A DNA stretch of 64,000 bases from Buchnera aphidicola (Phyllaphis fagi) (GTDB lineage: Bacteria > Pseudomonadota > Gammaproteobacteria > Enterobacterales > Enterobacteriaceae), in assembly GCF_964058955.1 (NCBI RefSeq), contig NZ_OZ060370.1, positions 248,001 to 312,000 on the forward strand. Direction: 5' to 3'. Below are positions 28,234 to 50,242 of the stretch, piece by piece. The notes beneath the pieces were generated by a model. That model was given only the letters and a program-made list of their open reading frames with translations. It was not told the origin of the DNA and did no database searches. Numbering within the stretch: the first letter of the stretch is position 1; the number at the start of each line of letters is the position of its first letter. Made by a program: the position numbers and the translations under genes.

Positions 28234-30330
28234 TTATTTATTATATTTTAATGCTTGTTTCATACTTAAACGAACACGACCTTGACGATCTATTTCTAAA
28301 ACTTTTACTAAAACATTTTGTTTAATTTTTAAATAATCAATTACTCGTTCTACTCTTTTATTTGCAATTTGAGAAATATGAACCAAACCTTCTTTTCCAA
28401 TACCAATAGATACAAAAGCTCCAAAATCTGTAATTTTTACTACTGTTCCATTATATATTTTACCAACTATAACATCTGTAGTAATTTCTTTAATTCGTTT
28501 AATAGCATGTATTGCTTTTTGTTCAATGGATGCAGCAATTTTTATAATACCATCATCTTTAATTTCTATTATCGTACCTGTTTCTTCAGTTAACATTCTA
28601 ATAATAGAACCACCTTTACCAATAACATCTTTAATTTTATCTGGATTAATTCGAATAGTATGAATGCGAGGAGCAAATTGAGAAATAGTATTTTTATGGA
28701 CATCAATAGTTTTATTCATAGTTTTTAAAATATATAATCTAGCTTTTTTAGCTGAATATAAAGAATCTTTTAATATTATACTCGTAATTCCTTCAATTTT
28801 CATATCCATTTGTATTGCAGTAATACCTTCTTTATTTCCAGATACTTTAAAATCCATATCTCCAAAATAATCTTCATCCCCTAAAATATCAGATAATATA
28901 ACATATTTTTTACCTTCTTTAACTAAACCCATTGATATACCTGAAACAGCAGATTTTATTGGAACACCTGCAGACATTAATGCTAAAGATGCACCGCATA
29001 CTGAAGCCATCGAGGAAGAACCATTAGATTCAGTAATTTCAGAAACTACTCTGATAGTATAAGGAAATTGATCTAATTTAGGCATAACAGCTAATAAACT
29101 ACGTTTAGCAAGACGACCATGTCCTATTTCTCGTCTTTTAGGAGATCCTACAATTCCTATTTCTCCTGTTGAATAAGGTGGAAAATTATAGTGAAATAAA
29201 AAACTATCTATTTTATCTCCTAATAATTCATCTAAATTTTGAGCATCACGAGATGTTCCTAATGTAACTGAAACTAAAGATTGTGTTTCACCTCGAGTAA
29301 ATAATGCTGAACCATGTGTACGAGGTAAAATATTAATACGTGTATCTAATCTTCGAATCATATCTTTACTTCTACCATCAATACGATAACCATTATTTAA
29401 AATACGATTTCGAACAACATTTTTTTTAATAATACTTAAAATATCTAAAATAATAAATTCTTCTAATAAGGGATTTTCAGTTTTTAAAATTTTTAAAATA
29501 TTATTTTTAATAATATCCAATTTTTTATTTCTTTGTATTTTCTTAATTATTTGATATGCTTGACTTATTACATCATATGATAACTTAAAAATTTGTTTAA
29601 ATAATTCATGTTTTTGAACATCATAATATTTATAATACCACGGTATTACACCAACATCTTGAGCAAATTGACAAATATTATCAATTAATACTTGTTGTTG
29701 TTGATGACCAAATGTAATAGCATTTAACACTTGATTTTCACTTAATAACTTCACTTCAGCTTCAACCATTAAAACTGCATTTTTTGTACCAGAAATTATT
29801 AAATCTAATTTTGTATTTTGCATTTCATCAGTAGTAGGATTTAAAATATATTTATTATTAATATATCCTACTCTAGCTGCCCCAATAGGACCTTGAAAAG
29901 GAATACCAGATAATGTTAATACTGTTGAAGCACCAATGATTGCAACAATATCAGGATTAATTTGAGGATTGACTGAAACAACTGTTGCAATAATTTGAAT
30001 TTCATGTAAAAAACCTTTAGGAAATAAAGGTCTAATAGGTCGATCTATTAATCGAGAAATTAATATTTCATTTTCACTAGGTCGACCTTCTCGTCTAAAA
30101 AACCCTCCCGGTATACGACCTGCAGCATACGTTCGTTCCTGATAATTTATCGTTAAAGGAAAAAATTTTTGACCAAAAACTTTTCTTTTACTGCCCACAA
30201 GAGTTACTAATACAGTGGTATCATTCATGGTAACTATTACAGAAGATGTTGCCTGACGAGCAATTATGCCAGTTTCTAAAGTAATAATATGTTCACCATA
30301 TTGAAATTTTCGCACAATAGAATTTAACAA
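28234..30330 (-). CDS. pnp: Polyribonucleotide nucleotidyltransferase PNPase
   Basis: PNPase degrades RNA 3' to 5' by phosphorolysis. The 698-residue protein has two RNase PH domains with [12 protein letters not shown] and [16 protein letters not shown], a KH domain ([14 protein letters not shown] near 560), and an S1 domain ([17 protein letters not shown] near 635). The start is TTG 30330 with an aagga site, the same rare start codon as E. coli pnp. It follows rpsO on the minus strand. Its usual partner RNase E here lacks the degradosome scaffold that binds PNPase. Confidence 0.97.
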
Positions 30331-30826: not shown

Positions 30827-31746
30827 TTACTCAATATTTAATATTTTACATGCAATTAATTGTCCTAAATTACCAATATGTCCTATAACAAACATATTTT
30901 TTTGTGTTTTTATAGTAATTCTAATAATTCCAGGACGTTTATGTGAAATAAAACAAATTTTATTTTTTTTTTTAAATATTATAGAAGAAAAAAACTGAAC
31001 TTCTGGTAATGCAAAAAAAATAGTTTTTAAAGGTATTAATAAATTAGAAAAAATATTATAATCTTTTAATCGAAAATACAATTGACTACATTGATATAAT
31101 TTTGTTAAAGTTATAGTATTATTAATATTATATAAAGAAATTTGTAATCTTCTTAAAAAAATAACATGGGCGCCGCATTTTAACATTTGCCCTAAATCAT
31201 GTACTAATGTACGAATATACGTTCCTTTAGAGCACATAATATCTAATTCTATAAGATTGCCGTAACGTTGAACGCAATCTAATTTATATATATAAACTGT
31301 TCTTAACGATCTTGGAATAATAATATTTTTTCTAGCATATTTATATAACTGTATGCCTTTATATTTTACTGCTGAATATATTGGTGGCAATTGATTAATA
31401 CAACCTTTAAAAGCATTCAAAAATTTATAAAACTCAAAATCAGTAAAATTAATTTTTTTTTTTTCTAAAACTATACCTTCTGAATCATAGGTAGAAGTAG
31501 TTTGACCTAACTTTATAATCACACTATATGATTTAATAGAATTTTCTAAATATTTAGAAAATTTTGTTCCTTCTCCAAAAAGGATAGGTAATATTCCAGT
31601 GGCTAAAGGATCTAATGTCCCTACATAACCCACTTTATTAACACAAAAAATTTTTTTTATCTTTTGTAATACTTGATTAGACGATAATCCTAAAGGTTTA
31701 TCTAATAGTAATATACCACTGATGTTTTTTTTTTTATATTATACAT
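30827..31746 (-). CDS. truB: tRNA pseudouridine-55 synthase TruB, frameshifted in a poly(A) tract
   Basis: TruB makes pseudouridine 55 in the T loop of tRNAs. A continuous frame runs from GTG 31633, but this lacks the conserved first 40 or so residues. Those are encoded upstream: GILLLDKPLGLSSNQ continues in frame with KVGYVGTLDPLATG, yet an in-frame TAA stops further extension. The only ATG, at 31746 (MYNIKKK), is offset by one frame across a run of 11 A on the coding strand (T at 31725-31735). One added A gives a typical complete TruB. Slippage rescue or a new pseudogene are both possible. Confidence 0.88.
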
Positions 31747-31774
31747 TTTTAAGTTTCACAATAAAATTAAAACA

Positions 31775-32176
31775 TTATCTTAATACATGTTTAATTAAAT
31801 TAGATATTTTTATGCCTGAAAGTAAAGAATCATCATGATAAAAAATTAAAAACGGTACTACCCTCAAGCGTAGATTTTTAGATAACATTTTTCGAATATA
31901 ACCTGAAGCGTTTTTTAATATTTTTATAATTTCTGTAATATTATTTATATGTTCAGTATCATTTATACTATTTTGATAATTACCTAAATAACTAAAAAAT
32001 ATTTGCGATAAAGATAAATCATTTGATGTTTTCACCATAGAAATTGTAATCATAAAATTAATTCTAGGATCTTTAATATATTTTGTTAATATTAATGATA
32101 CTTCTTTTTTTATCATATTTGAAATTCGAACAGAACGATTAACATCTTTTTTATAGTATTGTTTTAATAATTTCAT
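31775..32176 (-). CDS. rbfA: Ribosome-binding factor A
   Basis: RbfA helps mature the 5' end of 16S rRNA in the small subunit and supports growth in the cold. The 133-residue protein matches the family: VRISNMIKKEVSLIL near the start and DPRINFMITISMVKTSND follow the KH-like fold. It lies between infB and truB, as in the E. coli nusA-infB operon. Confidence 0.94.
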   Translation of the reverse strand: MKLLKQYYKKDVNRSVRISNMIKKEVSLILTKYIKDPRINFMITISMVKTSNDLSLSQIFFSYLGNYQNSINDTEHINNITEIIKILKNASGYIRKMLSKNLRLRVVPFLIFYHDDSLLSGIKISNLIKHVLR

Positions 32177-32213
32177 ATAACTATTTTATATTCTATAATA
32201 AATGATAATACAA

Positions 32214-34208
32214 TTATTGTTTTAATTCTATTGTTTCAAATGATTCTATTATATCACCAACATGCATATCATTATAATTTTTAATACTAATACCACATTC
32301 TTTACCACTTTGTACTTCTTTAGCATCTTGTTTAAATCGTCTTAAAGATTCTAATTCACCTTTATATACAACTCTATTATTACGTACAAGATGAATATGA
32401 TTATGACGTTTTATAATACCATGAATTACCATACAACCTGCGATAACAACAGATTTAGGGGCTTTAAATATATTTCTAATTTCTGCAGAACCAAACATTT
32501 CTTTTTTATATTTAGGAGATAATAATCCTATCATAGATAAGTTTAAATCATCTATTAAATTATATATTACAGAATAATAACGAACATCAATTTTTTCTAT
32601 TTCAATCATACGTTTTGCTAAAACATTAGATTGTACATTAAAAGCAATAATAATAGCTTGTGAAGCTAACGATAAAGAAATATCAGTTTCTGTAATATTA
32701 CCTACACTAGAACTAATAATCTTTATTGCTATATTTTCATGTTTGATTTGATGTATAGCATTCACAATAGCTTCTAAAGACCCTTGAACATCTGATTTTA
32801 AAATAATATTTAATGTAGTTTTTTTTTTATTATTTAAATTTTCAAACATATTTTCTAAATTTATTTTTTTTATATTAGAAAATTTCATTTCTTTACATTT
32901 TGTTTTTTTATATATAGAAATTGCACGTGCCTGTTTTTCATTTTTAACAACAGTAAAAATATCTCCACTAATAGGAATTCCTGATAATCCTAATATTTGA
33001 ACAGGAATAGATGGTCCAGATGATTGTAATTCACAACCAAAAGCATCTCGTATAGCTCGAATTTTACCATATTCCAAACCACAAAGTACAACATCACCTT
33101 TTTTTAAAATGCCCTCTTGAACTAATACAGTAGCTATTGAACCTCTACTTTTATCAAGACATGATTCAATTACTACACCTGAAGCCATGCCTGAATACAT
33201 AGCAGTTAACTCTAATAACTCAGCTTGTAATAATATTGCATCCAATAGATTATTTATACCTACTCCAGTTTTTGCTGAAACATTTACAAATATATTTTGA
33301 CCACCCCATTCTTCTGGTAATATATTATATTTCATTAACTCTTTTTTTACTATTTCAGGATTTGATTGCGATTTATCAATCTTATTAATTACAACAAGTA
33401 TTGGAACATTTGCCGCTTGAGCGTGACAAATAGCTTCTATAGTTTGAGGTTTTACTCCATCATCACCAGCAACAACTAAAACCACAATATCTGTTATTTG
33501 AGCTCCTCGAGCACGCATTGAAGTAAATGCAGCATGTCCAGGGGTATCTAAAAATGTAATTGTCCCTGATTTAATTTTTACATTATACGCACCAATATGT
33601 TGTGTAATACCACCATATTCACTCATTGCTACATTAGAAGAACGAATGTAGTCTAACAGTGTAGTTTTACCATGATCCACATGACCCATAATAGTTACTA
33701 CTGGAGGTCGATTTTTTTTAATACATTTACTATTTACAATATTACGAGCATTCATAACTGATGTTTCTAATTCATTTTCATGTTTTAAAAGTACTTTATG
33801 ACCCATTTCTTCTGCAATTAATTGAGCTGTTTCTTGATCAATGATGTTATCAGAAGTAGTTTCTACTCCTAATTGAATCATTTTTTGTATTACTTCAGAA
33901 CTTTTTTTAGACATCTTATTTGATAATTCAAATATTGTCATTGTTTCATTAATTACTATATCTTTGTTGACTAATTTATTTGGTTTTTTAAAATTTTGTC
34001 GTAATGCACTATTTTTTATATGATTTTTCATCTTTCTTTTAGGATGAAAAATAATTTTTTTTTCTTCTTTCTCTCGTCTATGACCGTAATACTTAGTATT
34101 TTTTTTATAATATTTATATTTTTTCATTTCATGATAAATATTTTTATTTAATTCAAATTTATAATTTTTTGTTAATATATTTAAAAATTTTTTTTTTAAA
34201 TGTAACAT
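32214..34208 (-). CDS. infB: Translation initiation factor IF-2, shortened N-terminus
   Basis: IF-2 is a GTPase that brings initiator tRNA to the 30S subunit. The 664-residue product has GTPase motifs [17 protein letters not shown] and NKIDK, then domains II-IV to the C-terminus. E. coli IF-2 has 890 residues; almost all the difference is the N-terminal region, where only about 165 residues precede the G domain, including one conserved IF2-N module ([12 protein letters not shown]). It starts at ATG 34208. It is part of the nusA-infB-rbfA-truB-rpsO-pnp series. Confidence 0.96.
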
Positions 34209-34534
34209 ATGATTTAAGATATCTCAGTTAATGTAATTGTATTATTAAATAATTTGTAAATTATTTTGTAATTTATTATTTATTTATAAATTGAAAAAGA
34301 AATAGGTTATTGATATATCTATTCCTAAAGATTATGCGATATTATATATATTTTATATTTTATAAAATCATATATATATAAATTGATAATTTAATAAAAA
34401 GTATTGATTATAATTTCAGTATTTTTATATGCATTAAATTAATATTTTATCAAACTAAAAAATATTATAAGTATGAATTGTTAACACGCCAAAATAATAT
34501 ATTGAATATTCAAAATATTATTAATAATTTATCA
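34209..34534. other. Gap between nusA and infB
   Basis: This 326-bp A/T-rich spacer has no open frame. In E. coli nusA and infB are nearly contiguous, so the space may be eroded 3' nusA and 5' infB sequence, consistent with the NusA protein lacking its last domain and IF-2 its first. No clear remnant was identified. Confidence 0.4.
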
Positions 34535-35917
34535 TTAATCATCTTTTACAGTAGATAATTTTTTTTTAGGTAATAGTAGAGTCATTGGTTTTTCATCAAT
34601 ATCTGATGATAATGATGATATATCAGTTATTTTTTCACTGTGATATTGTAATGTTTTTTCTAATAAAAAATTAGATAGTACTTGATTAGATACTTTTCTA
34701 ATAATATTAACTGCATCAATATTAATACCTTGAATTTGTAATAATTCATTATCAGACATACAACAAAATTCTTCCAGCGCAGAAAATCCTTCTTGCATTA
34801 AAATCTTGATAATATGTTTTTGTAAATTTAAATATTTCGAAAAAATATTATAAATTTCTCGCATTCTAATTTTATTTTTTTTATTTAAATCATCAATAGT
34901 TAGAATATTTAATTTCCAACCACTTAATTTAGAAGCAAGTCGAACATTTTGACCATTTTGACCTATTGCTTGTGCTAAACAATTACGATCCACTTCAATA
35001 TCCATAGTATAACTATCTTCATAAACAACAACTGATACAACATTAGCTGGAGCCATAGCATTAATTACAAATTGTGCTGGATTATCATGCCATAAAATAA
35101 TATCTATACGTTCTCCAAACATTTCTTTTGATACTGCTTGTACACGAGTTCCTCTGATACCTATACAAGAACCAATTGGATCAATGCAATTATCATAACT
35201 TTTTACTGCAACTTTCGATCTAAAACCTGGATGACGCGCAATGGCTTTAATTTTAACTAATTTTTCTTTAATTTCAGGTACTTCAATTTTAAATAGCTCA
35301 ATTAACATCTCCGGCTTTGTTCGACTAAGAAATAATTGAATACCTTTAAATTTTGAATGTACATGATATAATATACCTTTAACACGATCACCTAATCGAA
35401 AATTTTCTCTTGGAATCATATCTTCTTTTTTAAGAGTTACTTCAAGACAATTATCTAGATTTAAAATCATATAATATTTTTTAATTTTCTTTACAATGCC
35501 AGTAATTATTTGATACTGAAAATGACAAAATTTATTAATTGTTATCGCGACTTCTGCTTCCCGAACTTTTTTAATAATTACTCGTTTAGCTGTTTGAATA
35601 GTAATTCTATCAAATGTGACTGATTTAATTTCATCTTCTATGTAATCATTTAATTTTGCATATTGATTTTCAAATTGTGCTGCTTCTAAAGTAATTTCTT
35701 GTGTTGGTTTGGTCACTTGTAAAACTATCATCCATCGACGAAAGGTGTTAACATTTCCATTTTCTCGATTAATATTTACTCTAACATTAATTTCATAAGA
35801 GTATTTTTTTTTTGTTGCTATAGATAATGCAACTTCTAATGCTTGAAAAATTATTTCACGAGGTAATGATTTTTTATTTGATATGTATTCTACAATAGAT
35901 AAAATTTCTTTATTCAT
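34535..35917 (-). CDS. nusA: Transcription termination/antitermination factor NusA
   Basis: NusA binds RNA polymerase and governs pausing, termination and antitermination. I place the start at ATG 35917 (MNKEILSIVE), with a ggag site nine bases upstream, as in E. coli; the longer frame would add five residues. The 460-residue product has the N-terminal domain, S1, two KH domains (SCIGIRGTRVQAVSKE, IGQNGQNVRLASKL) and the first acidic repeat. It is about 35 residues shorter than E. coli; the second acidic repeat is replaced by a short tail ending KKKLSTVKDD. rimP, normally upstream, is missing. Confidence 0.95.
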   Translation of the reverse strand: MNKEILSIVEYISNKKSLPREIIFQALEVALSIATKKKYSYEINVRVNINRENGNVNTFRRWMIVLQVTKPTQEITLEAAQFENQYAKLNDYIEDEIKSVTFDRITIQTAKRVIIKKVREAEVAITINKFCHFQYQIITGIVKKIKKYYMILNLDNCLEVTLKKEDMIPRENFRLGDRVKGILYHVHSKFKGIQLFLSRTKPEMLIELFKIEVPEIKEKLVKIKAIARHPGFRSKVAVKSYDNCIDPIGSCIGIRGTRVQAVSKEMFGERIDIILWHDNPAQFVINAMAPANVVSVVVYEDSYTMDIEVDRNCLAQAIGQNGQNVRLASKLSGWKLNILTIDDLNKKNKIRMREIYNIFSKYLNLQKHIIKILMQEGFSALEEFCCMSDNELLQIQGINIDAVNIIRKVSNQVLSNFLLEKTLQYHSEKITDISSLSSDIDEKPMTLLLPKKKLSTVKDD

Positions 35918-36080
35918 TTTAATAAACTCCAAAATATTAATATTACAAAATTGATAAAATTATATTTTATATTCATACAACATAAAATATATTTTACTAC
36001 AATTTTAAAAATAAAAATATCTTATAAAAAATTTAATAAACTAGAAATTTTTTATACTATATAAATTAATATTTATATAT

Positions 36081-36114
36081 ATAATAAAACCCCAATAATT
36101 CGGGGTTTTATTAT
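36081..36114. terminator. G/C-rich hairpin upstream of nusA, downstream of tRNA-Leu
   Basis: A 13-bp perfect stem (ataataaaacccc / ggggttttattat) with an 8-base loop stands in the 323-bp interval between tRNA-Leu(GAG) and nusA. With its G:C core and A/T arms it resembles a bidirectional intrinsic terminator, probably ending the minus-strand secG-tRNA transcript. The rest of 35918-36240 shows only A/T-rich sequence, where metY and rimP lie in E. coli. Confidence 0.8.
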
Positions 36115-36240
36115 TATAAAATTATAAATTCTAATATATTTTTAAAATAAAAAATTTTAAAATTTATTAAATTATTAAAATACTACATTATAAAATTATA
36201 TAACAAAAATTTTAATATACAAGATTTTAATTACATATTT

Positions 36241-36328
36241 TACCGAGGATGGGATTTGAACCCATAAGCTATATAATTTAGCACTATCTCCTCAAGATAG
36301 CGTGTTTACCTAATTTCACCACCTCGGC
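36241..36328 (-). tRNA. leuU: tRNA-Leu(GAG)
   Basis: On the minus strand a gccgaggt acceptor stem, GAG anticodon, long variable arm and GGTTCAAATCC T arm give a leucine tRNA. It sits between secG and nusA, the same place as E. coli leuU. CCA is not encoded. Confidence 0.96.
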
Positions 36329-36387
36329 ATAATTATTATAGAGTCATATAAAATATAATATTATTTTTAAAATAGTAATTATTTATT

Positions 36388-36633
36388 TTAATTTACAATA
36401 ACATTATGAGTATTTAAGTTACATATAACAACACTCAAAAATAAAAAAATTATAACAAAAATTTTTGTCATTCTATCCAACATAGTACTATAACTTATAG
36501 AATCTAAAAATGTCATATCATTATTATTATGATTGGAAGAATAAAAACTATTATTTTTTATTGGATTTAACATAATTAAAATAACTAAACATAATGAAAT
36601 AATAACAAACACTACCAAAGTAATATGATACAT
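36388..36633 (-). CDS. secG: Preprotein translocase subunit SecG
   Basis: SecG is a small inner-membrane partner of SecYE that aids protein export. The 81-residue product has two hydrophobic helices (about 4-22 and 55-74) separated by a polar loop with the SecG-like MLNPIK. It is shorter than E. coli SecG (110), lacking most of the low-complexity C-terminal tail. Context supports it: ftsH-secG-leuU, as in E. coli after loss of folP and glmM. Confidence 0.88.
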   Translation of the reverse strand: MYHITLVVFVIISLCLVILIMLNPIKNNSFYSSNHNNNDMTFLDSISYSTMLDRMTKIFVIIFLFLSVVICNLNTHNVIVN

Positions 36634-36790
36634 AATTATCTCATTAATCCTTTTAAATATTATAATAATTATAAATAAAAATATAAAAATTAGATATATT
36701 TACTCTTTTATATTAAATATTTACATATTATAAGTAGAAAATCATTATTTTATATTAATTTAAAATTATAACATATAATATTTCTAAATA

Positions 36791-38638
36791 TTAATTTTGG
36801 TGATTATGATTGTTCCAACCAGCTGGATCTCTCACTTTTTTTCGATTCATTAAATCATCAATTTGAACAGAATCAATAGTTTCATATTTCATTAATGCAT
36901 CTTTCATAGCATGTAAAATATCTAAATTAGAATTTAATAATTTTTTAGCTCTATTATAATTCTTATCAATTAATACCTTCATTTCTTCGTCAATAATACG
37001 AGCAGTTTCATTGGATATATATGAAGATTTCGATACTGTATGATTTAAAAATAATTGATTATTTTCATCATCCGTATACAATAAAGGACCTAACTTATCT
37101 GAAAAACCCCACTGAGTTATCATATTTCTTGCTAAATTAGTAGCTATTTTAATGTCATTCATTGCTCCAGTGGATACTTTCTTCGAACCATATATTATTT
37201 CTTCAGCTAAACGACCTCCATATAAAGTTGATATTTGACTTTCTAATTTTTGTCTACTAATACTTAATATATCAGATTCTGGTAAAAAAAACGTTACACC
37301 TAATGCACGACCTCGAGGTACTATAGTTACTTTATGCGCGGGATCATGTTCTGGTACTAATCTTCCTACAATAACATGACCAGATTCATGATATGCAGTA
37401 AATTCTTTTTGAATTTCTGTCATTATCATAGATCGTCTTTCCGAACCAATCATCATCCTATCTTTAGCTTTTTCGAAATCTAACATAGAAACTAAATTTT
37501 TATTTAATCGAGCAGCATATAATGCAGATTCATTAACTAAATTTGACAAATCAGCACCTGAAAAACCAGGAGTACCTCTTGCAATTACCATAGGATTAAC
37601 ATCAGATGCAATAGGAATATTTTTCATATGTACTTCAAGTATTTTTTCTCGTCCCCGAATATCAGGTAACGGAACAATAACTTGACGATCAAATCGACCT
37701 GGACGTAATAAAGCAGAGTCTAAAACATCAGGTCGATTAGTAGCAGCAATTAAAATAATACCTTCATTGCCTTTAAAGCCATCCATTTCAACTAACATTT
37801 GATTTAAAGTTTGCTCTCGTTCATCATTACCACCACTAGTAATACTTCCTCTTTGTCGACCTACTGCATCAATTTCATCTATAAAAATAATACAAGGTGC
37901 TGATTTTCTAGCATGCTTAAATACATCTCGTACCCTTGAAGCACCTACACCAACAAACATTTCTACAAAATCCGATCCAGACATTGTTAAAAAAGATACT
38001 TTAGCTTCTCCTGCAATTGCTTTTGCAAGTAATGTCTTCCCTGTTCCTGGAGGCCCAATCATTAAAATACCTTTTGGAATTTTTCCTCCTAATTTTTGAA
38101 ATTTTTTAGGTTCTTTCAAATATTCTACTAATTCGCTCACTTCTTCTTTTGCTTCATCACATCCCGCCACATCATTAAAAGTAATATTAATTTGATCTTT
38201 TGAAAATATATACGTTTTACTTTTACCAAAAGATGTAGAATTATGATTATGATTATTTTTTACTTGATACATAAAATATAACCATAATCCGATTAATAAT
38301 ACTGTTGGAAACCAAGAAACAAAAACAGAAAACATAATACTATGTTTTTGAGGAGGGTTACTAGATATAATAACATCATTAGCTAATAAACGATTAAGTA
38401 ATTTAGAATCATATAAAGGAATATAAGTAATATATTTACTGTGGTCTTTTTTTATAATATTAATATAATTTTCATCAATGCATACTTTTTGTACTTCATG
38501 TTTATTCACTGCTGATAAAAATGTAGTATAATCAATATTTTGATTATTCATGTTATGCATATTCATACCATACATTATAAATATGAATAATATTAATACT
38601 ACTAACCAGAAGATAAAATTTTTAGCTATGTCACTCAA
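36791..38638 (-). CDS. ftsH: ATP-dependent zinc metalloprotease FtsH (HflB)
   Basis: FtsH is a membrane-bound AAA+ protease that removes damaged membrane proteins and regulatory proteins. The 615-residue protein has two N-terminal membrane helices (about 9-27 and 104-124), Walker A GPPGTGKT near residue 193, the DEID Walker B, the second region of homology with RPGRFDRQV, and the zinc motif HESGH near 416. The start is TTG 38638 with a gagg site eight bases upstream. It follows rlmE by 53 bp, a conserved pairing. Confidence 0.97.
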
Positions 38639-38691
38639 GGTATCAACCTCATAATAATTACAGCTATGTTTAAAAAAAAATTAATATAATA

Positions 38692-39321
38692 CTATATTTT
38701 TTTTCGTTCCATGGCTAATAAAAATACTTCTCGAGAACGATTTCGAGAAGCATTAGGTTTACATATTTTTACTATATTAAAAAAAGAACGTATATTTTTT
38801 AAATAATTTTGAAATCCTTCTCCTTGAAATAATTTAACTAAAAATATACCTTTTTTAGACAGTATACTTTTAGTTATTTCAAATGCTAAATTAGATAAAA
38901 AAAATGCACTAGGAATATCAATATAAGATATTCCAGTAATTTTTGGTGACATATCTGACATAACTAAATTAATTTTTTTATGCTTTATATAATTGAATAA
39001 AGTATTAAGTATAATTTTATTAGAAATATCACCTTGTAAAAAAAATACTCCTTGAATTTTCTTCATAGAATTAATATCACACGATATAACTGATCCATGT
39101 TTACCAACTGCATTAATAGCATACTGAGACCAACTACCAGGAGATGAACCTAAATCAATAACATTCATTCCATGCTTAAACAAATTATATTTTACATGAA
39201 TATCATGTAATTTAAACCATGATCGAGCACGTAAATGTTGACTATGTGTACTTTTAACATATTGATCATTAAAATGTTCAGATAACCAACGATGTGAACT
39301 AATAGAACGTTTTTTCTTCAT
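38692..39321 (-). CDS. rlmE: 23S rRNA 2'-O-ribose U2552 methyltransferase RlmE
   Basis: RlmE (FtsJ/RrmJ) methylates U2552 in the 23S rRNA A loop, a late step in large-subunit assembly. The 209-residue protein matches E. coli. RSWFKLHDI carries the catalytic lysine region, VIDLGSSPGSWSQYA near 54 is the SAM-binding motif, and VMSDMSPKITG and LVKLFQGEGF carry further catalytic residues. Upstream of ftsH on the minus strand, as in E. coli. Confidence 0.96.
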   Translation of the reverse strand: MKKKRSISSHRWLSEHFNDQYVKSTHSQHLRARSWFKLHDIHVKYNLFKHGMNVIDLGSSPGSWSQYAINAVGKHGSVISCDINSMKKIQGVFFLQGDISNKIILNTLFNYIKHKKINLVMSDMSPKITGISYIDIPSAFFLSNLAFEITKSILSKKGIFLVKLFQGEGFQNYLKNIRSFFNIVKICKPNASRNRSREVFLLAMERKKI

Positions 39322-39473
39322 ATAAAATTTTTATAAAATGTGAAATATATTATATATAATAATACTTGAAAATATTTTCTATATATCAATGAAAACTATA
39401 TTCTATTAAAATATTTAGTTTATAAAAATATTTAATTTTAATTATATTAATAATACTACTTTTTATATTGTCA

Positions 39474-39950
39474 TTAAATATGTTCTATATTTAAAATTTT
39501 ATAACGTAATTTACCACTTGGAGTATTGACTATTACAATATCTGATATTTTTTGACCAATTAATGCTCTAGATACAGGAGAATCTATTGAAATAAGATTA
39601 TTTTTGAAATCAGATTCATCATTTCCAACAATACAAAATTTACAAATTTTATTGGTATTTAAATTTAATATTTCTACAGTAGTACCAAATATAACTTTTC
39701 CACTAAAATTAATATTTTTTATATCAATCACTTGAGCATAACATAATTTTGATTCAATATCTCGAATTCGACTTTCACAGAATGATTGCTCTTCTCTTGC
39801 TGCATGATATTCTGCATTTTCCTTTAAATCACCATGTTTTCGAGCTTCAATGAGTGAAGAAATAATCTTAGGTCTTTTATGATGCTTTAATTCATGTAAT
39901 TCTTTTTTAAGTTTTCTCATACCATTTACAGTCATTGGAATCTTATACAT
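39474..39950 (-). CDS. greA: Transcription elongation factor GreA
   Basis: GreA rescues backtracked RNA polymerase by stimulating transcript cleavage. I choose ATG 39950 (MYKIPMTVNG), which aligns with E. coli MQAIPMT, rather than a GTG one codon upstream; this gives 158 residues. The N-terminal coiled coil has the acidic tip near LKENAEYHAAREEQ, and the C-terminal FKBP-like domain ends with SPVSRALIGQKISD. It lies upstream of rlmE-ftsH. Confidence 0.95.
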   Translation of the reverse strand: MYKIPMTVNGMRKLKKELHELKHHKRPKIISSLIEARKHGDLKENAEYHAAREEQSFCESRIRDIESKLCYAQVIDIKNINFSGKVIFGTTVEILNLNTNKICKFCIVGNDESDFKNNLISIDSPVSRALIGQKISDIVIVNTPSGKLRYKILNIEHI

Positions 39951-40144
39951 CACCGTATATCCTTAATAATTTGAATCTATAAAATTCAAAATACATCTAA
40001 AATAACTTTAATCAAGAATTATACATATATAATTAAAATTATATATAAAGAATTATTTATATATAATATAAAATTATATTAATCAATGATAAATCATTAC
40101 TAAAATATTTTATAATTCTTAACATTACAACAAAATGGAAAAAT

Positions 40145-40393
40145 ATGAATAATATAGATATCAAATCTTATCTTATGAAACAAATACCATTAGATAAATT
40201 ATATATAAAAGGTGATAATAATCATATTAAAATTACTGCTATTGGAAAAATATTTCATGGTATGAACAATATTCAAAAACAACAAGTCATATATAAACCT
40301 TTAACAAAATATATTATAGAAAAAAAAATTCATGCTATTTCAATAAATACATTTACTTTAGAAGAATGGAATAAAAAAAATATAAATAAGTAA
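40145..40393 (+). CDS. ibaG: BolA-family iron-metabolism protein IbaG (YrbA)
   Basis: An 82-residue BolA-like protein. KIFHGMNNIQKQQVIYKPL is characteristic of the IbaG/YrbA branch, including the conserved histidine. Family members act with monothiol glutaredoxins in iron-sulfur cluster handling. It is divergent from greA and upstream of rplU on the plus strand. Short length is normal for the family. Confidence 0.88.
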   Translation: MNNIDIKSYLMKQIPLDKLYIKGDNNHIKITAIGKIFHGMNNIQKQQVIYKPLTKYIIEKKIHAISINTFTLEEWNKKNINK

Positions 40394-40566
40394 AAATTAT
40401 TTTCTATAATAATTTAAAAATACAGTATTTAAAATTATAAATATTATAAAGCATATAATTAATAAATTATTTAAAATGATGATTTAAACAATAAATTTTA
40501 TTTTACTACTATATTTTATAAAATATAATAAAAAATATCTTGTTTATTTTAATTTTAGGAGTATTT

Positions 40567-40881
40567 ATGTACGCAATTATAAAAAATGGTGGTAAACAAT
40601 ATCAGGTTAATGAAGGTAAAACTGTTCGTTTAGAAAAAATAAATCTTCCGACAGGAAAAAATATTGAATTTAATAAAATTTTAATATTCGTAAATAATTC
40701 AAATGTTCAAATAGGAAATCCTACCTTATCAAATATTAAAATTATAGGAAATATTACAAACCACGGAAGACATAAAAAAATAAATATCATTAAATTTAAT
40801 CGTAGAAAACATTATAAAAAAAAACAAGGTCATCGACAATACTTTACTGATGTTAAAATTACAAGTATTAACTCTATTTAA
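40567..40881 (+). CDS. rplU: 50S ribosomal protein L21
   Basis: L21 binds 23S rRNA near L20. I place the start at ATG 40567 (MYAIIKNGGKQYQV), with a strong aggag site six bases upstream; the longer frame would add nine residues absent from the family. The 104 residues match E. coli (103). RRKHYKKKQGHRQYFTDVKI is the typical C-terminus. rpmA follows 27 bp downstream. Confidence 0.96.
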   Translation: MYAIIKNGGKQYQVNEGKTVRLEKINLPTGKNIEFNKILIFVNNSNVQIGNPTLSNIKIIGNITNHGRHKKINIIKFNRRKHYKKKQGHRQYFTDVKITSINSI

Positions 40882-40908
40882 ATAATAATTTTGAAATAGG
40901 AAATAATT

Positions 40909-41163
40909 ATGGCACAAAAAAAAGCTGGAGGATCAACTCGAAATGGAAGAGATTCACATTCAAAAAGATTAGGTGTGAAACACTTTGGTGGCGAATACAT
41001 AACATCTGGATCAATCATTATTAGACAAAGAGGAACTAAGTTTCATCCTGGAAACAATGTAAAATTAGGAAAAGATCACACGATATTTGCAATAAAAGAC
41101 GGAAAAGTTCAATTTTTAAAAAAAGGATTAAAAAATCGCATGTATGTCAATATTATTATTTAA
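40909..41163 (+). CDS. rpmA: 50S ribosomal protein L27
   Basis: L27 reaches the peptidyl-transferase centre with its N-terminal tail. The 84-residue product begins [20 protein letters not shown], family-typical, and contains [15 protein letters not shown]. It follows rplU in the universal rplU-rpmA pair. An atagg site precedes the ATG. Confidence 0.97.
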
Positions 41164-41325
41164 TAAATAAGAAAATATTAATATATTTTATTTTACACAC
41201 TTAACATCCCAAATTATATAAACTTTAATAAATATATATTATCATAATAAAATATATATTACCGAGTAATAATCATGTGAAAGTACTATTTTATTGTTTA
41301 ATAGTTATATAAAAAATGATTATGA

Positions 41326-42342
<1,017 letters not shown>

Positions 42343-42354
42343 TATATAATTTAA

Positions 42355-42381
42355 AATCCGGATATTTAAATACTCCGGATT
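42355..42381. terminator. Bidirectional hairpin between obgE and rpsI
   Basis: A perfect 7-bp stem (aatccgg / ccggatt) with a 13-base loop lies between the convergent obgE and rpsI stops. Its four-base G/C core stands out from the surroundings, supporting a terminator for both genes. Confidence 0.65.
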
Positions 42382-42420
42382 ATACATAATAATAATAAAA
42401 TAAAATTAAAAATTATTAAA

Positions 42421-42813
42421 TTATCGTTTTGAAAATTGTGGTTTTTTTCTAGCCTTTCGAAGTCCAACTTTTTTCCTTTCTACTTTTCGAGCATCTCGAG
42501 TAACAAATCCTGCTTTTCGTAATTCACTTCGAAATGAAGAATCATGCTGAATTAAAGCTCGAGTAATACCTTGACGAATTGCTCCAGATTGACCAGAAAT
42601 TCCACCTCCTTTAACTGTAATATAGAGATTTACTTTATTTAACATATCTGTTAACTGCAATGGATGTAAAATAACCATACGTAATGTTGCACGAGGAAAA
42701 TATTCTAATAAAGACCTTTTATTAATGATGATATTTCCTGTACCTTTTTTTAAAAAAATACGAGCAGACGAACTTTTACGACGACCAGTAGCATAATTTT
42801 GAACATCAATCAT
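42421..42813 (-). CDS. rpsI: 30S ribosomal protein S9
   Basis: S9 contacts P-site tRNA through its C-terminal tail. I choose ATG 42813 ([15 protein letters not shown]) with a ggat site about nine bases upstream; the longer frame starts at TTG. The resulting 130 residues equal E. coli. [19 protein letters not shown] and the basic end RKKPQFSKR are conserved. It follows rplM by 21 bp. Confidence 0.97.
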
Positions 42814-42834
42814 AATAATTATATCCAAAAAAAA

Positions 42835-43263
42835 TTAAATATTTAAAAATTTAGGATTTTGTGCTATATGATTATGAGAATCAGAAGCATAAACCTTTAA
42901 TTTACGAAAAATAGAACGACCTAAAGATCCTTTTGGTAACATACCACGTACTGCAATTTCAATAACTCTTTCAGGATATTTTATAATCATATCTTGAAAA
43001 GATATTTTTTTAATCCCTCCAATATAACCAGTATGTCGATAATAAAATTTATTTATTTTTTTTTTTCCAGTTACTATAATTTTTGAAGCATTTAACACAA
43101 TAATATAATCTCCTACATCAATATGAGGAGTATATTCTATTTTATGTTTACCTCGTAAATAATGAGATATTTGAGCACAAAATCGACCTAAAATTTTTTC
43201 TGTTGCATCAACATAATACCAAGTTTTTTGTACATCATTAGCATTTATAGAAATACTTTTCAT
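42835..43263 (-). CDS. rplM: 50S ribosomal protein L13
   Basis: L13 is an early-assembly large-subunit protein. I choose ATG 43263 ([15 protein letters not shown]), preceded by an aggtg site, giving 142 residues as in E. coli; the longer frame adds three. [14 protein letters not shown], the GDYIIVLNA segment and [12 protein letters not shown] are conserved. It is first in the rplM-rpsI operon and divergent from pheA. Confidence 0.97.
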
Positions 43264-43528
43264 TAACATCACCTAAAATTTATATAATAACTCAATAATT
43301 CATGAAAATAGAATATTTTTAAAACAAATTTTATAAAATGATTAATATTTTAAATTATTATTTTAAAAAATAAATTAATTTCAATAATTGCTATCCATAG
43401 TATATCAAAATAAAAATATACTAAAAACAAAATAAATATGTTTTAGATATATTAAAATAATATCAAAATTTTTAAATATCACCAATAATTATTTAATGTA
43501 TCTTATCTAATATCATGGATATAAAAAT

Positions 43529-44662
43529 ATGAATCATAAAAAAAAATTATTAGAATTACGAAATTACATTAATTATATCGATAAAAAAATACTTATATTA
43601 TTATCTAATAGAAAAAAAATAACTATAAAAATTATAAAAGAAAAAATAATAAATAATATACCTATACAAGATAAAAAACGAGAAAAAGAAATATTAAAAA
43701 AACTTTTTCATATGGGGAAAAAATATTTTTTATCTCAAAACTACATTGAAAAAATATTCAAAAATATCATTCAAGAATCTGTAATAACACAAAAAAAAAT
43801 TAAAAATCAATATATGACTAAGAATATTTTTAAAATACCTCAATTTTCTATTCTTGGTCCACAAGGATCATACTCACATATTGCAATGATAAAATATGCT
43901 AAAAAAAAATTCAAATATTTCAATATAAAAACATATTTAAGATTTCAAAAAATATTTCAATCAATTAACAATAAAACATCAAATTTTGCTATAATTCCTA
44001 TTGAAAATACTTATTCCGGATTTATTCATGAAACATATAATTTATTATGTTTAAGTAAACTACATATTATTGATGAACTTAATATACCAATTCAACATTA
44101 TTTCATGACAAATCAATTTACTGATTTGAAAAATATAAAAATTATTTATAGTCATCCTCAACCATTTGAACAATGTAGTAAATTTATAAAAAAATTTAAT
44201 CATTTAACAATAAAATATACCAATAGTACTTCAGATGCTATAAAAAAAATTATTCAAAATCACAACATCTATTCTTCTGCTATAGGAAATAAAGAAAATA
44301 TAAAAATTTATAAACTAAAAGAAATTAAAAAAAATATCACAAATCAAATACATAACAGTACTCGATTTTTGGTATTAAAAAATAAAAATATTGAAAAATT
44401 TAAAACTGATATTTCTAAAATTATATGTATTATAAATATAAATAAAAAAATAGAATTAATAAATCAAATACTATTCATTTTTAATACAAACCAACTCAAT
44501 ATATTAAAAATAGAACTTAAATCAAATAATCATAACAACATGCTAGAAAATACTATATATATAGAAATTCAAACATACTTATCATTAGATAACATGTTAA
44601 AAATATTTACTAAATTTAAAAAACAAAAAATATTATTTAAAATCTTAGGATATTGTTTATAA
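43529..44662 (+). CDS. pheA: Bifunctional chorismate mutase / prephenate dehydratase PheA
   Basis: PheA converts chorismate to phenylpyruvate, the committed route to phenylalanine. The 377-residue protein has an AroQ-type mutase domain in which R11, R28, K39, D48, R51, E52 and Q88 all sit at the E. coli active-site positions. The dehydratase domain has the catalytic NSTRFLVL motif. The C-terminal ACT domain lacks the GALV and ESRP phenylalanine-binding motifs (ELKSN stands where ESRP is expected), so feedback inhibition is probably lost, as I recall reported for other Buchnera. A 20-bp palindrome (44650-44669) spans the stop codon. Confidence 0.96.
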   Translation: MNHKKKLLELRNYINYIDKKILILLSNRKKITIKIIKEKIINNIPIQDKKREKEILKKLFHMGKKYFLSQNYIEKIFKNIIQESVITQKKIKNQYMTKNIFKIPQFSILGPQGSYSHIAMIKYAKKKFKYFNIKTYLRFQKIFQSINNKTSNFAIIPIENTYSGFIHETYNLLCLSKLHIIDELNIPIQHYFMTNQFTDLKNIKIIYSHPQPFEQCSKFIKKFNHLTIKYTNSTSDAIKKIIQNHNIYSSAIGNKENIKIYKLKEIKKNITNQIHNSTRFLVLKNKNIEKFKTDISKIICIININKKIELINQILFIFNTNQLNILKIELKSNNHNNMLENTIYIEIQTYLSLDNMLKIFTKFKKQKILFKILGYCL

Positions 44663-45865
44663 ACAATATTATCTAAAAAATTTCAATATCAAAAGTAAAA
44701 CCACCAAAATAGTACCTTCAATAGATAATAAAGATATTAATATTATTATATAACAATCTATTTAAAAACAACTATCAAAATATTTTAAAATAAATAATAT
44801 AAAAACTATATAATATATACCAAAACTGATTAATAAATCATATATTATTATTTATAATAATCATTATAGATATATAAAAATAAGATTATAAAATATTAAT
44901 TATAGTGTAATTGTAAAAACTGTTACATTAAAATAAATATCATATTAAATATCTATAAACACTATAACCTTCTCAATCGTTAATATATTCTTATATTAGT
45001 CAATAAAATATATAAATATTACATATATTAAAAATAAAAATTGTATTAAATATGATACAATATTATTTTCAATTAAAACATATATATTAATAATTAAATT
45101 ATTTTAAAATAAAATAATCATATATTTATTTATAGAAATCACAATAAACGACATAATTTTATATTAAATTTAATGTACAAAAATAAAAATAATTATTTAA
45201 CTTTTATTAAAATGGATTGTTGATACATTCTATAATTACAAAAAAAATAATTAATGTAATTAAAATTAAATATCTTCCAAATGTTAAATATGATATTACT
45301 TAAATAAAATAATAATTTTATATTTATATTAAGAATATTAATAAATGATATTACTTAAATTAATAAAAATTTTTAATACTAGAATAAATTGAAAATTTTA
45401 GAATATCAATATAAATAATGTATTATTACCTGAAATATAAACATATTATTAAATTATAAATTTATAAATATAATATTATTTATTAATTATATAAAAAATA
45501 AAAAAATAATATATTTCATTTCAATGCTTTAAAATTACAAATATAATATATACAATTTTAAACATGATAAAAATTACATATTAAACAATATTTACATATT
45601 TTAAAATATATTTAATAAAATATTTTATAAAAATAAAAATAAAATTTATTTTATAAAATTATAAAAATATTACATAATATTAAAATCATAAAATATTGAT
45701 AAAATTCTATAAATATAGAAATAATTTAAATAATAAAAACTAAATATTTAAAATGATTTAATATTTAAAACAATTTATCTAGTATATGTTATTTTCAATA
45801 CCTAAATCATTATAAAATAATATTTTATTCATGTATTAACATATAATATTTTAAAAGAGAAAAAT
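44663..45865. other. 1.2-kb gene-free gap at the ffh position
   Basis: No open frame of useful size lies here on either strand. ffh is the expected neighbour upstream of rpsP in related Buchnera and lies close upstream in E. coli. The gap is nearly an ffh length (about 1.35 kb), but I could not recognize convincing remnants of the GTPase or M domain. The sequence looks like strongly eroded A/T-rich DNA and carries the rpsP promoter. Confidence 0.55.
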
Positions 45866-46120
45866 ATGGTAAAAATAAGATTAGCACTTCATGGTTCTAA
45901 AAAAAAACCATTTTATAAAATTATTGTTACAGATAGTAGATTTCCAAGAAATGGAAGATTTATTGAAAATATTGGATTTTTTAATCCAAACGTTCATAAT
46001 AAAGCAAAAAAAATTAATTTAAATATTAATCGAATGGATTATTGGGTAAAAAATGGAGCAATTTTATCTAATAGAATAAAATATTTTATTAAAGTAATAA
46101 AAAAAAATAATATTTTATAA
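45866..46120 (+). CDS. rpsP: 30S ribosomal protein S16
   Basis: S16 assists 30S assembly. The 84-residue product begins MVKIRLALHGSKKKPFYKII and contains VTDSRFPRNGRFIENIGFFNP, both characteristic. It opens the rpsP-rimM-rplS series (trmD missing), with an aaagag site before the ATG. Confidence 0.96.
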   Translation: MVKIRLALHGSKKKPFYKIIVTDSRFPRNGRFIENIGFFNPNVHNKAKKINLNINRMDYWVKNGAILSNRIKYFIKVIKKNNIL

Positions 46121-46153
46121 AATAAAATAAATAAAAGAGACGTATATAACACA

Positions 46154-46655
46154 TGATTAATCCCGTAATTATTGGAAAAATAGGTTCTTCCTATGGCATA
46201 TTAGGTTGGAATACTATTTTTTCTTTTACTGAAAAAAAAAAAATATTTTTCAATATATTCCGTGGTTTATTAAACAGAATAATATTTGGAAGATAATTTG
46301 TTTAGAATCTAAAAAAATACAACAAAAAAAAATCATAATTAAAATTAAAAACATTAATAATCGTGATCAAGCAAAAAAATTAACAAATTCTTTGATAGCT
46401 ATTGATATAAAAACATTACCTAATTTGAAAAACTACGAATATTATTGGAAAGATATTTTGTTTTGTAAAGTATTTAATAAATATAAAAAATATATTGGTA
46501 CTGTTTCAAATATTATACGATCGAAATCTAATGATATATTAGTTATTAAAAATAATCAAAATGATTCTCAAGAAATATTGATTCCTTTTATCGAAAAAAA
46601 TATTATTTATAAAGTTGATATTATTCATAAAATGATTTCTACAAATTGGTACTAA
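46154..46655 (+). CDS. rimM: Ribosome maturation factor RimM, frameshifted in a poly(A) tract
   Basis: RimM binds S19 and helps mature the 30S head. From ATG 46154 the frame encodes NPVIIGKIGSSYGILGW, a typical RimM start, and then reaches a run of 12 A (46232-46243) before stopping at 46298. In the next frame the text resumes exactly with IFQYIPWFIKQ and continues to YYWKDILFCKV, DILVIK and the C-terminus at 46655. One added A gives a complete protein of about 167 residues. Slippage rescue or recent loss are both possible. Confidence 0.88.
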
Positions 46656-46736
46656 ACACACTATTTAAATAATATATAAAAATTCAATAAAATTATTTCA
46701 TTTTTATAAAAATTTCACAATCGGATACATATTATT

Positions 46737-47090
46737 ATGAAAAATAAAATTATTCAAATCATTGAACAAGAACAAATGGAACAAAAAAAAATACCTAAAT
46801 TTAGACCTGGTGATACTATAGAAGTAAAAGTATGGGTTGTAGAATTATCTAAAAAACGTCTTCAATCTTTTGAAGGTATCGTAATAGCTATTAAAAATCG
46901 CCATTTACAATCTTCTTTTACTGTTCGTAAAATATCCCATGGAGAAGGCATTGAAAGAGTCTTTCAAACATATTCAAATATAATAGAAAATATTATTATT
47001 AAAAAAAAAGGTTTAGTGAGAAAATCAAAATTATATTACTTACGCAATAGAATTGGAAAATCAGCTCGAATTAAAGAACGTATTGAATAA
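46737..47090 (+). CDS. rplS: 50S ribosomal protein L19
   Basis: L19 lies at the 30S-50S interface. The 117-residue protein matches E. coli (115): [28 protein letters not shown] and [12 protein letters not shown] are conserved. It follows rimM after 81 bp; trmD, which lies between rimM and rplS in E. coli, is absent. A hairpin follows the gene. Confidence 0.97.
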
Positions 47091-47119
47091 TTAAAATAAT
47101 AAAATATTAAATAAATTAT

Positions 47120-47143
47120 GCAGTCATATATTTTATTGACTGC
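47120..47143 (+). terminator. Hairpin after rplS
   Basis: A perfect 7-bp stem gcagtca / tgactgc with a 10-base loop starts 30 bp after the rplS stop and is followed by an A/T run. It fits the end of the rpsP-rimM-rplS transcript. Confidence 0.65.
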
Positions 47144-48456
47144 AAAATATTAAAAATTATTTCTACTTATAATCAATTCATAATATTTAATAATTATTTT
47201 ATTTTGTTTAATTTTATACATGTATTATCAATACTTGATATATCTTATAGTATTGTAATTAAAAAAAGTAATTAAAACATAAAAATATATTGTATGGTTA
47301 TTTATCTTTAATTGATCTAATTTAGTATCTCAATTACACAAAAAAATTAATTATGTTCATTATTTTTTTTATAATAAAAATATAAATAACGCATCATCAC
47401 AGAAATATAAATCTTTCAACCACATAAAATGAATATTCTAGAATCTAAAAATATAGATAATATATTTAATCAATCATATATAAATACTTATAATCTAACA
47501 ATATTATGATAAATATCAATATTATTTAAATAATCACATATAACAAATGTATTTATTAATTAATCTGTAATATATTTTAATAATATGTAATATTAAAAAA
47601 TATATCTTACTATTAATTATTAATGAATAAAAATTTTTCATTATAAGTTATAAAAATTAAAATATTTATATATTATAATTAAAAATTTTACATAAGTATA
47701 ATTTTTATTATTATTAATTGATGCTATAAACATCCTAATCATTAATTGATTTTCTAATAAAACATAATTATTTAAATTATTTATTCATTATCATACTTAA
47801 AATTACTATTTTATCATAATTTATATATTCTTATCTGTTATACTTTTTATATTTCTATAAATAAAATTATTTTTTATTTTCTATTCAATTATCATAATAA
47901 AATTGATAAAAATATAATTTATAAAAATTTTCTAATATAAATATTCAAGATTTTTTATTAGTACAATATAAAATAAAATTGTATTTTAAAAATGTAATAA
48001 TAAATTTTTATTTTATCATGTGTCTTAAAACAAATTTTTAATTATTTAACAATTTAATATATCATAAAAAGTATATAAATTTAAGTAAAATAAAAAAATT
48101 ATAATCTTTATAACATCATTATTTTAAAATGACATATATTTAATTACATCTTATGTAATAAAGTCCTATTAATCTATTTACTCAACAATGATCTTATCAA
48201 TATCTTATTAATATAATGATAATATTGTACATAATTTATTTTTACATTCTTAAATAATAAAAATATATATTTCAATAAATATAATAAAATTATGTACTAA
48301 AATTTATTATCATTGTAAATATCATATTTTAAAATTACCAAAAACTATATTAGAAACTATTATATTTGTTTAATAGTGCATTTACAATTAAATACTTTAC
48401 AAACATTATAAAACTAATTATGATAAATAATTAAATAAATTATTTGAAATGAAAAT
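47144..48456. other. 1.3-kb gene-free gap between rplS and aroQ
   Basis: No frame of useful length was found on either strand and no RNA gene is visible. It is likely the eroded site of one or more genes held here by less reduced relatives. The aroQ promoter must lie at its right end. Confidence 0.5.
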
Positions 48457-48912
48457 ATGCCCTATTTTAATATTTTATTATTAAATGGACCTAATTTAAA
48501 TTTATTAGGAACAAGAGAAACCAAAATTTATGGTAAAAAAACTTTAAATCAACTACTAGATACATTACATAAAAAATCTAATCAACTCAAAGTGAAAATA
48601 ACACATTTACAATCTAATGCTGAACATATTTTAATTGAAAAAATCCAACAATCTAAAAATATTGATTATATTATTATTAATCCTGCTGCTTTTGCACATA
48701 CTAGTATAGCATTAAGAGATGCATTATTGTCTGTAAATATTCCGTTTATTGAAGTACATATTTCTAATATTTATTCGAGAGATAACTTTAGATCACATTC
48801 TTGGTTATCTGATATTTCGAATGGTGTTATTTGTGGTTTTGGATTAGACGGATATTATTGGGCATTAAAAACTGCTATAAAACGATTAAATAAAAAAACC
48901 AAAAAATTATAA
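48457..48912 (+). CDS. aroQ: Type II 3-dehydroquinate dehydratase AroQ
   Basis: AroQ removes water from 3-dehydroquinate in the shikimate pathway that feeds PheA. The 151-residue protein is type [17 protein letters not shown] with the catalytic region, [18 protein letters not shown] with the family histidine, and [18 protein letters not shown]. It stands alone on the plus strand between two gene-free stretches. E. coli uses the unrelated type I AroD; AroQ is the form I expect in Buchnera. Confidence 0.96.
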
Positions 48913-48973
48913 AATATTACAAATTTAAATCTATATTATATTTTTTTAATTACTCTATCGTTTCTATAATTTA

Positions 48974-48991
48974 TTACTATAGTTATAGTAA
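48974..48991. terminator. Possible hairpin between convergent aroQ and rluD
   Basis: An inverted repeat ttactata / tatagtaa with a very short centre lies 62 bp after the aroQ stop. It could terminate aroQ. The rest of the 395-bp aroQ-rluD interval (48913-49307) shows nothing recognizable. Confidence 0.3.
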
Positions 48992-49307
48992 CTTCCTCAG
49001 TTTAATTATTATTTATATATTTTATTACAATATCTAATAAACATTTTAAATCCTTTTATTTTATAAGATAATACAAATTACTTATGTAATTTCTTACAAT
49101 TATTAAAATAAAATATTAAAATCATATATAAAACAAATAATAAATCTATGTTTCTATAATTTATAAAATAAACTGATTCTGTTAAAAATTTTATATTTAT
49201 ATTTTATTTTCTAACTTCATATACATTGAACTCAAAGAGTACATAGTACATAATAATTATAAAATAATCATGTAAATAATTACTATTACTAATCATTAAT
49301 AACTTAT

Positions 49308-50242
49308 TTATAAGTATTGTATAATCTTTAACATATCTAAAGATAATGGTATTTTAAAATTCATATACTTGTTAGTTATAGGATGAAAAAATGAAATTTT
49401 ACTTGCATGTAATGCTTGTCGAGAAAATAATCTAATTTTTTCAAAATATTTTCTTGAAATACCTTGAGGAATATGATTTCTTGTTTTATATAATGGATCA
49501 CCTAAAATAGGATGTCGAATATGTAACATATGAACTCGAATTTGATGTGTACGACCAGTTTCTATTCGAATACGAAGATGAGTATAATATTTCAATTTTT
49601 TAATAATTTTATAATGTGTAATGGATATTTTCCCCGACATATGAGCCATCATACAAATTCTTTTTTTTATATGGCGCATGATAGGATAATTTATTGTACC
49701 TCCAGAAACTATTCTTCCAAAAACTAATGCATCATATTCACGAATAATTTCTCTTTTTCTTAATAAAAATACTAATTTTTCATAACTATATAAATCTTTA
49801 GCAATTACCATTAATCCAGTAGTATTTTTATCCAATCTATGTATAATACCCGATCTAGGTATACTATTTAAATCAGCATTGTAATATAATAAAGCATTTA
49901 ATAAAGTACCATTTATATTACCACACGACGGATGTATAACTAATCCCACTGGTTTGTTAATAATTAATATATTATTATCTTCATAAATAATATTTAAAGC
50001 AATATTTTCACCTATATCACTTTTTTTTTTTTTATATCCATAAAAATAGTAATTTTATCTCCAGGATTAACCATCGTATGAGGTTGATTAATCATAAAAA
50101 AATTTACATATACTTGTTGAGAAATAATCATTTTTTTAAAAATAGATCTAGAATGATTTGGAACCATATGTACTAAAATGTGATCTAACCTATATTTTTT
50201 TTTATCACGGTGTGGAACTATAATTTCAATTTTTTTTTTCAT
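49308..50242 (-). CDS. rluD: 23S rRNA pseudouridine synthase RluD, frameshifted in a poly(A) tract
   Basis: RluD makes pseudouridines 1911, 1915 and 1917 in helix 69 of 23S rRNA. The N-terminal S4 domain (YRLDHILVHMVPNHSRS) runs from ATG 50242 to a stop at 50012. The catalytic part, with NKPVGLVIHPS, HRLDKNTTGLMV and TGRTHQIRVHML, runs on in another frame to 49308. The switch falls in a run of 13 A on the coding strand (T at 50021-50033); one added A joins the parts into about 311 residues. RluC is separate at 12.9 kb, so this is the second paralog. Confidence 0.87.

Follow-up and report, generated by a model that had tools for sequence, protein, structure and literature searches.

Our analysis of a 64,000-nucleotide stretch of the genome of Buchnera aphidicola (Phyllaphis fagi) (the window; positions 248001-312000 of a single 431,406-base contig, 21.6% G+C) indicated that three of its genes, truB, rimM, and rluD, are out of frame at long runs of A, and that two further genes of this genome, secE and rsmI, are interrupted in the same manner outside the window. 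In all five genes, the run (11-13 A) is one A short. The breaks are real and, judging from the conservation of the sequences, lie in genes that probably still function. We consider it quite probable that single-A deletions have occurred in coding A runs and are tolerated since slippage would restore the frame in some of the products.

The genome of the window (G000) was compared gene by gene, and over the syntenic 63-68 kb, with the ten further genomes of its genus (G001-G010; 412-453 kb, in a family that includes 5-Mb genomes), the scans for frame breaks covering about 65 kb of each congener plus secE and rsmI. Among plasmid records, the LeuA of G000 came nearest to that of Buchnera aphidicola, with 75% identity. 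The same five genes are broken in G009, all of them one A short. A tree of seven concatenated proteins joins G000 and G009 as sister genomes (support, 1.0), with G004 grouping with both. Four of the G009 breaks match those of G000 in both site and state, namely those in truB (A10), rimM (A12), secE (A13), and rsmI (A11), at protein identities between the two genomes of 71.0%, 73.7%, 56.0%, and 68.8%, respectively; counted by hand, the difference in run between the genomes was traced to a substitution at the run end in truB and to a whole codon in secE. The rluD gene of G009 is broken at a different run, an A9 near the gene start. In the scanned stretches of the other nine congeners, no such break held up, truB of G004 excepted, and rimM and rsmI are in frame in all nine at the site of the G000/G009 break. 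Long runs are still in frame in rimM of G010 (A13) and rsmI of G004 (A14).

Reading frames at the interrupted tracts

In truB, rimM, and rluD, the frame that opens with ATG stops 2-20 codons past the tract (reading, up to the stop, MYNIKKKTSVVYYY in truB, ...KKKIFFNIFRGLLNRIIFGR in rimM, and ...MDIKKKKVI in rluD), and the conserved remainder of each gene lies in the frame gained by one extra A (or two fewer). Matches in Pfam and NCBIfam backed the identities of TruB, RimM, and the RluD catalytic domain, as well as that of the S4 domain encoded upstream of the rluD tract. An earlier note on this stretch, made from its letters and open reading frames (ORFs), had described the truB A11, rimM A12, and rluD A13 tracts as out of frame and each one A short, which these frames and family matches confirmed. 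The downstream frame of truB also contains an A12 (31453-31464) and an A11 (30963-30973), both in that frame. In a search for rimM across 119 genomes of the taxonomic family (one per genus except for G000 and G001), 114 of which matched, the open frames were 172-205 codons long; the exceptions were G000 with 140 codons and G038, in which the gene is broken elsewhere. The rimM of G125 has two internal TGA codons.

The position of a break determines which products could be made by other means. The rsmI gene is interrupted midway through the methylase domain, with both halves conserved relative to G009 (70.7% upstream, 68.8% downstream), and no in-frame ATG, GTG, or TTG follows the tract for 128 codons in G000 and 165 codons in G009; an ordinary internal start therefore cannot supply the second half. 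Past the run in rluD of G000, 23 codons precede the first in-frame start, which lies inside the conserved catalytic part. Both secE, whose tract has the zero-frame codons AAA AAG, and truB are broken no more than five codons past the start, and a downstream or non-AUG start could also supply the core protein. Within 30 codons past the truB tract, there is no ATG, GTG, or TTG.

Coordinates of the broken tracts and adjoining frames in G000 (window positions unless marked as contig positions)
Feature	Position	Strand	Description
truB A11 tract	31725-31735	-	4 codons after ATG (31746); frame broken, one A short
truB downstream open frame	30827-31738	-	TruB_N, TruB_C_2; 303 codons
rimM 5' part	46153-46231	+	ATG to tract, 26 codons; conserved with G009
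rimM A12 tract	46232-46243	+	frame broken, one A short
rimM downstream open frame	46233-46655	+	RimM, PRC barrel; 140 codons
rluD 5' open frame	50012-50242	-	from ATG; S4 domain
rluD A13 tract	50021-50033	-	between S4 and catalytic domain; frame broken, one A short
rluD downstream open frame	49308-50054	-	catalytic domain (PseudoU_synth_2; RluD); 248 codons
secE broken tract	contig 41066-41076		one A short
rsmI broken tract	contig 60936-60946		one A short

Census of A tracts

Across the genome, 58 tracts of at least 11 A were found (101 overlapping matches to 11 A), 57 of them in genes and one outside genes; the coding tracts sit in 51 genes, every A run being on the coding strand. Fifty-two of the 57 coding tracts are in frame and five are broken (in the window, 3 of 15). 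An in-frame ATG precedes the run in 51 of the 52 in-frame tracts, while the remaining one, the A12 inside truB, shares its frame with the downstream piece of that gene. Runs of 8-10 A yielded no additional break in G000 within the window and the fetched stretches (about half of the genome) and within the limits of the scan, which took runs of at least 8 A that were followed by 70 or more open codons, with a frame that opened no more than 30 codons ahead of them.

Runs of at least 10 A gave 60 overlapping matches compared with a mean of 16.4 after dinucleotide shuffling, but an abundance exceeding chance was rejected, since shuffling codons within genes produces an equal number from the lysine content of the proteins (31 seen, 28.4 expected with a standard deviation of 2.4; for runs of at least 10 T, 0 seen and 0.5 expected; 53 window ORFs). 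The tracts themselves are thus ordinary, and it is the breaks that need explaining. The prfB gene (contig positions 312054-312104, just past the window end) holds two in-frame runs, an A12 and an A11.

Selection on the interrupted genes

The downstream frames of G000 and G009 differ at 19-22% of bases and contain no stop. When the same number of random changes was simulated, none of 400 runs remained stop-free for truB, rimM, or rsmI, and 3 of 400 did so for secE. The share of differences falling at third positions (0.43 in truB, 0.48 in rimM, 0.42 downstream and 0.57 upstream in rsmI, and 0.37 in secE) resembled the share in intact neighbouring genes with a comparable identity. The upstream pieces, though short, are also conserved relative to G009, at 70.7% in rsmI and 80.8% in rimM. 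Purifying selection is clear on the downstream parts of truB, rimM, and rsmI and on the catalytic part of rluD. The strongest case for a living gene is rsmI, with its mid-domain break, and rimM is next.

Several observations weigh against the view that the broken genes are kept alive by slippage. The truB gene of G004 is broken in another state (two A too few or one too many), which fits a non-AUG internal start in that genome better than a fixed rescue. In six of the ten congeners (G001, G002, G003, G006, G007, and G010; by eye), rluD has lost the S4 part and kept the catalytic part, and in six (G001, G002, G003, G006, G008, and G010) secE has only 63-95 open codons versus 116 in G000; the upstream parts of rluD and secE may therefore be decaying rather than being rescued. 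Neutral runs on upstream parts alone stayed free of stops in 36 of 1000 cases for rsmI, 565 of 1000 for rimM, and 148 of 1000 for the rluD S4 part, and they did so in 61 of 1000 for the portion of secE between tract and core, which is 45% identical; in secE and the S4 part of rluD, the signal of selection is weak. As a separate observation, several of the six short congener secE genes look trimmed to the C-terminal core.

Direction of the breaks and functional class

The earlier note had also proposed that the tracts share a need for one additional A. This stood for all five broken genes in G000 and for all five in G009, and the census did not reveal the equal numbers of +1 and -1 needs that the note had named as speaking against its proposal. 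Among the relatives, whose frame states the note had suggested comparing, G009 agreed in all five genes and G004 departed in truB. Counted as independent events, truB, rimM, secE, rsmI, rluD of G000, and rluD of G009 are one A short versus truB of G004 in the other state, giving 6 of 7 in one direction (two-sided p = 0.125) or, without G004, 6 of 6 (p = 0.031); the bias is statistically weak because four of the breaks are inherited and not independent. The uniform direction is thus suggestive but not established. As G004 groups with G000 and G009, its truB may represent the ancestral break plus an additional loss, in which case every step would have been a deletion. The direction is consistent with deletion-biased replication slippage and also with a filter imposed by how the breaks are rescued.

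The note's second proposal, a shared functional class, held for four of the five broken genes and did not extend to secE (protein export). Among the 51 tract-bearing genes, eight act in RNA modification or ribosome maturation (rsmI, tadA, mnmA, rlmN, rluC, truB, rimM, and rluD), and four of these eight are broken versus 1 of the 43 others (Fisher, 0.0013); with a wider class that adds rnpA, obgE, engB, and der, the figures are 4 of 12 versus 1 of 39 (Fisher, 0.0086). Outside the window, 1 of 4 genes of the class is broken versus 1 of 36 others (p about 0.2, with 35 used in the test). The enrichment is nominal and post hoc, the class having been picked after three of its genes had been seen. 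We infer that it reflects a relaxed requirement for enzymes whose scarcity the cell can tolerate.

Proposed mechanism and alternatives

In the mechanism that we favour, deletion-biased replication slippage would shorten a coding A run by one, and RNA polymerase would insert an extra A there in a portion of the transcripts, which would then yield full-length protein. The common direction would result from deletion-biased slippage together with inheritance, perhaps sharpened if only the one-A-short state is well rescued, and ribosome-tuning enzymes would dominate the broken set because the cell can get by on small amounts. RNA polymerase slippage on A runs is known in such symbionts; it requires nothing further and is the likely mechanism.

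Rescue could instead come from the ribosome. In this, the main alternative, a -1 frameshift on lysine codons (A AAA AAA or A AAA AAG) would restore the frame and breaks in the other direction would be lost, so that the direction reflects a filter. Such a shift could cure all five G000 and all five G009 breaks and would explain the direction equally well, and the zero-frame codons of the secE tract suit it. A slippery heptamer is present, but any A run of this length contains one. No stable structure beyond that of shuffled sequences follows the five G000 tracts (70-nt folds, z = -1.22 to 0.17), so that a ribosomal stimulator is not evident, and no Shine-Dalgarno-like stretch was seen by eye just upstream of the tracts. 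Loss of lysine-tRNA modification as a cause was rejected on the two genes looked for, since mnmE is present in all 11 genomes and mnmA in G000. With truB of G004 in the other state as well, we regard ribosomal frameshifting as a rather unlikely source of the rescue.

That the broken genes are pseudogenes on their way to being lost seems improbable. The loss of the rluD S4 part and the shortening of secE, each in 6 of 10 congeners, would accord with such decay, as would the fate of trmD, another RNA-modification gene, which was not found in 4 of the 11 genomes of the genus (G000, G005, G008, and G009); the tree implies more than one loss. Against this, four breaks are common to G000 and G009 at 56.0-73.7% identity with downstream frames open and conserved in both genomes, and past the tracts, the five G000 genes showed no further frame break.

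Homopolymer miscalls in the assembly are a very unlikely explanation. An undercall by one would yield exactly the one-A-short state, and the rluD A13 break occurs in one genome only. However, a general undercall is at odds with the 52 of 57 coding tracts of 11-15 A that are in frame, and independent errors at the same four genes in two assemblies are unlikely. Sequencing error was thus rejected as a general cause, and the earlier note's concern that it might explain all three window tracts was not borne out.

We likewise give very little credence to a scheme in which only one-A-short breaks survive, through either -1 frameshifting or +1 transcript slippage, and form a loop whereby expression of rluD, rsmI, rimM, and truB, which contribute to ribosome performance, would rise as accuracy falls. 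Expression that rises when accuracy falls has a precedent in prfB, which encodes release factor 2, and TrmD guards the reading frame; if true, the loop would operate in a lineage in which trmD was not found. Least credible is a programmed low dosage, which the earlier note had raised as an added possibility, with the broken tract maintained to keep the proteins scarce: four genes are in the same state in both species, but plain inheritance accounts for this sharing, and the nine other congeners keep rimM and rsmI in frame at this site, so that no conserved need for scarcity is seen.

Neighbouring genes and candidates set aside

In G000, trmD is absent between rimM and rplS (46656-46736) and was not found elsewhere in the genome. 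TrmD is essential in E. coli. Its loss as the cause of the breaks was rejected because it does not track with them, G005 and G008 being without trmD and yet showing no break in the scanned stretches. The infB-like ORF of the window (32214-34223, minus strand; by eye) has 669 codons compared with 549 in G009 and 737-891 in the other nine congeners, and its N-terminal part seems shortened in the G000/G009 clade. Between rplS and an aroQ-like ORF (by eye), about 1.4 kb (47091-48456) contains no long ORF and is possibly a decayed gene.

A few scan matches in the congeners were set aside: G002 8852 (rsmC-like by eye, with an unclear start codon), G005 18450 (short and matching no known gene), and single-support junctions in G002, G003, G005, and G009. 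The match at G007 53969 was dropped, as a normal ATG follows in alaS, and congener ORF matches over tRNA genes of the syntenic region were dropped as false frame changes. Nineteen more matches lacked an upstream ATG frame; 14 of these were left out of the counts, three are second runs in broken genes (rimM of G000, truB of G009, and secE of G009), and two, both in G006, precede the normal infB start. The truB break of G004 escaped the scan owing to a downstream TTG and was found by reading the sequence. Two candidates for further A-run breaks were rejected. The argF gene of G007 (approximately 28100-28700 of the syntenic region) is a decayed gene with several stops and frame changes, none at long A runs. 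The pheA-like gene of G005 (by eye; approximately 46707 of the syntenic region), which is split between its two domains at an A9 run and whose second domain opens with its own ATG, was counted as a gene fission.

Relation to known systems

In 2008, Tamas et al. reportedly described frameshifts at poly(A) runs of Buchnera and Blochmannia that slippage during transcription rescues. The present case resembles that system in that an AT-rich insect endosymbiont carries coding A runs that are out of frame in otherwise conserved genes, and it differs in being known from DNA sequence alone and in that every break found is one A short. Ancient conserved homopolymer frameshifts in Blochmannia are likewise said to have been found by Wernegreen et al. 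in 2010. Breaks common to related species and purifying selection on the pieces are features shared with our case, which concerns another symbiont lineage and in which four of the five breaks are shared and rluD is broken at different runs. The needed shift direction and the lysine slippery codons also recall dnaX of E. coli, in which -1 programmed ribosomal frameshifting occurs at lysine codons; unlike for dnaX, no downstream structure was found and no functional short product is expected in the present genes.

Collectively, our findings describe a new case of a known phenomenon, to which they add a gene set, the sharing of breaks by two diverged species, and a uniform direction that is suggestive but not established. 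Two diverged genomes with the genes broken and related genomes with them intact offer a natural comparison of whether the direction of slippage is set by mutation or by rescue. In such genomes, annotation may label working genes as pseudogenes.

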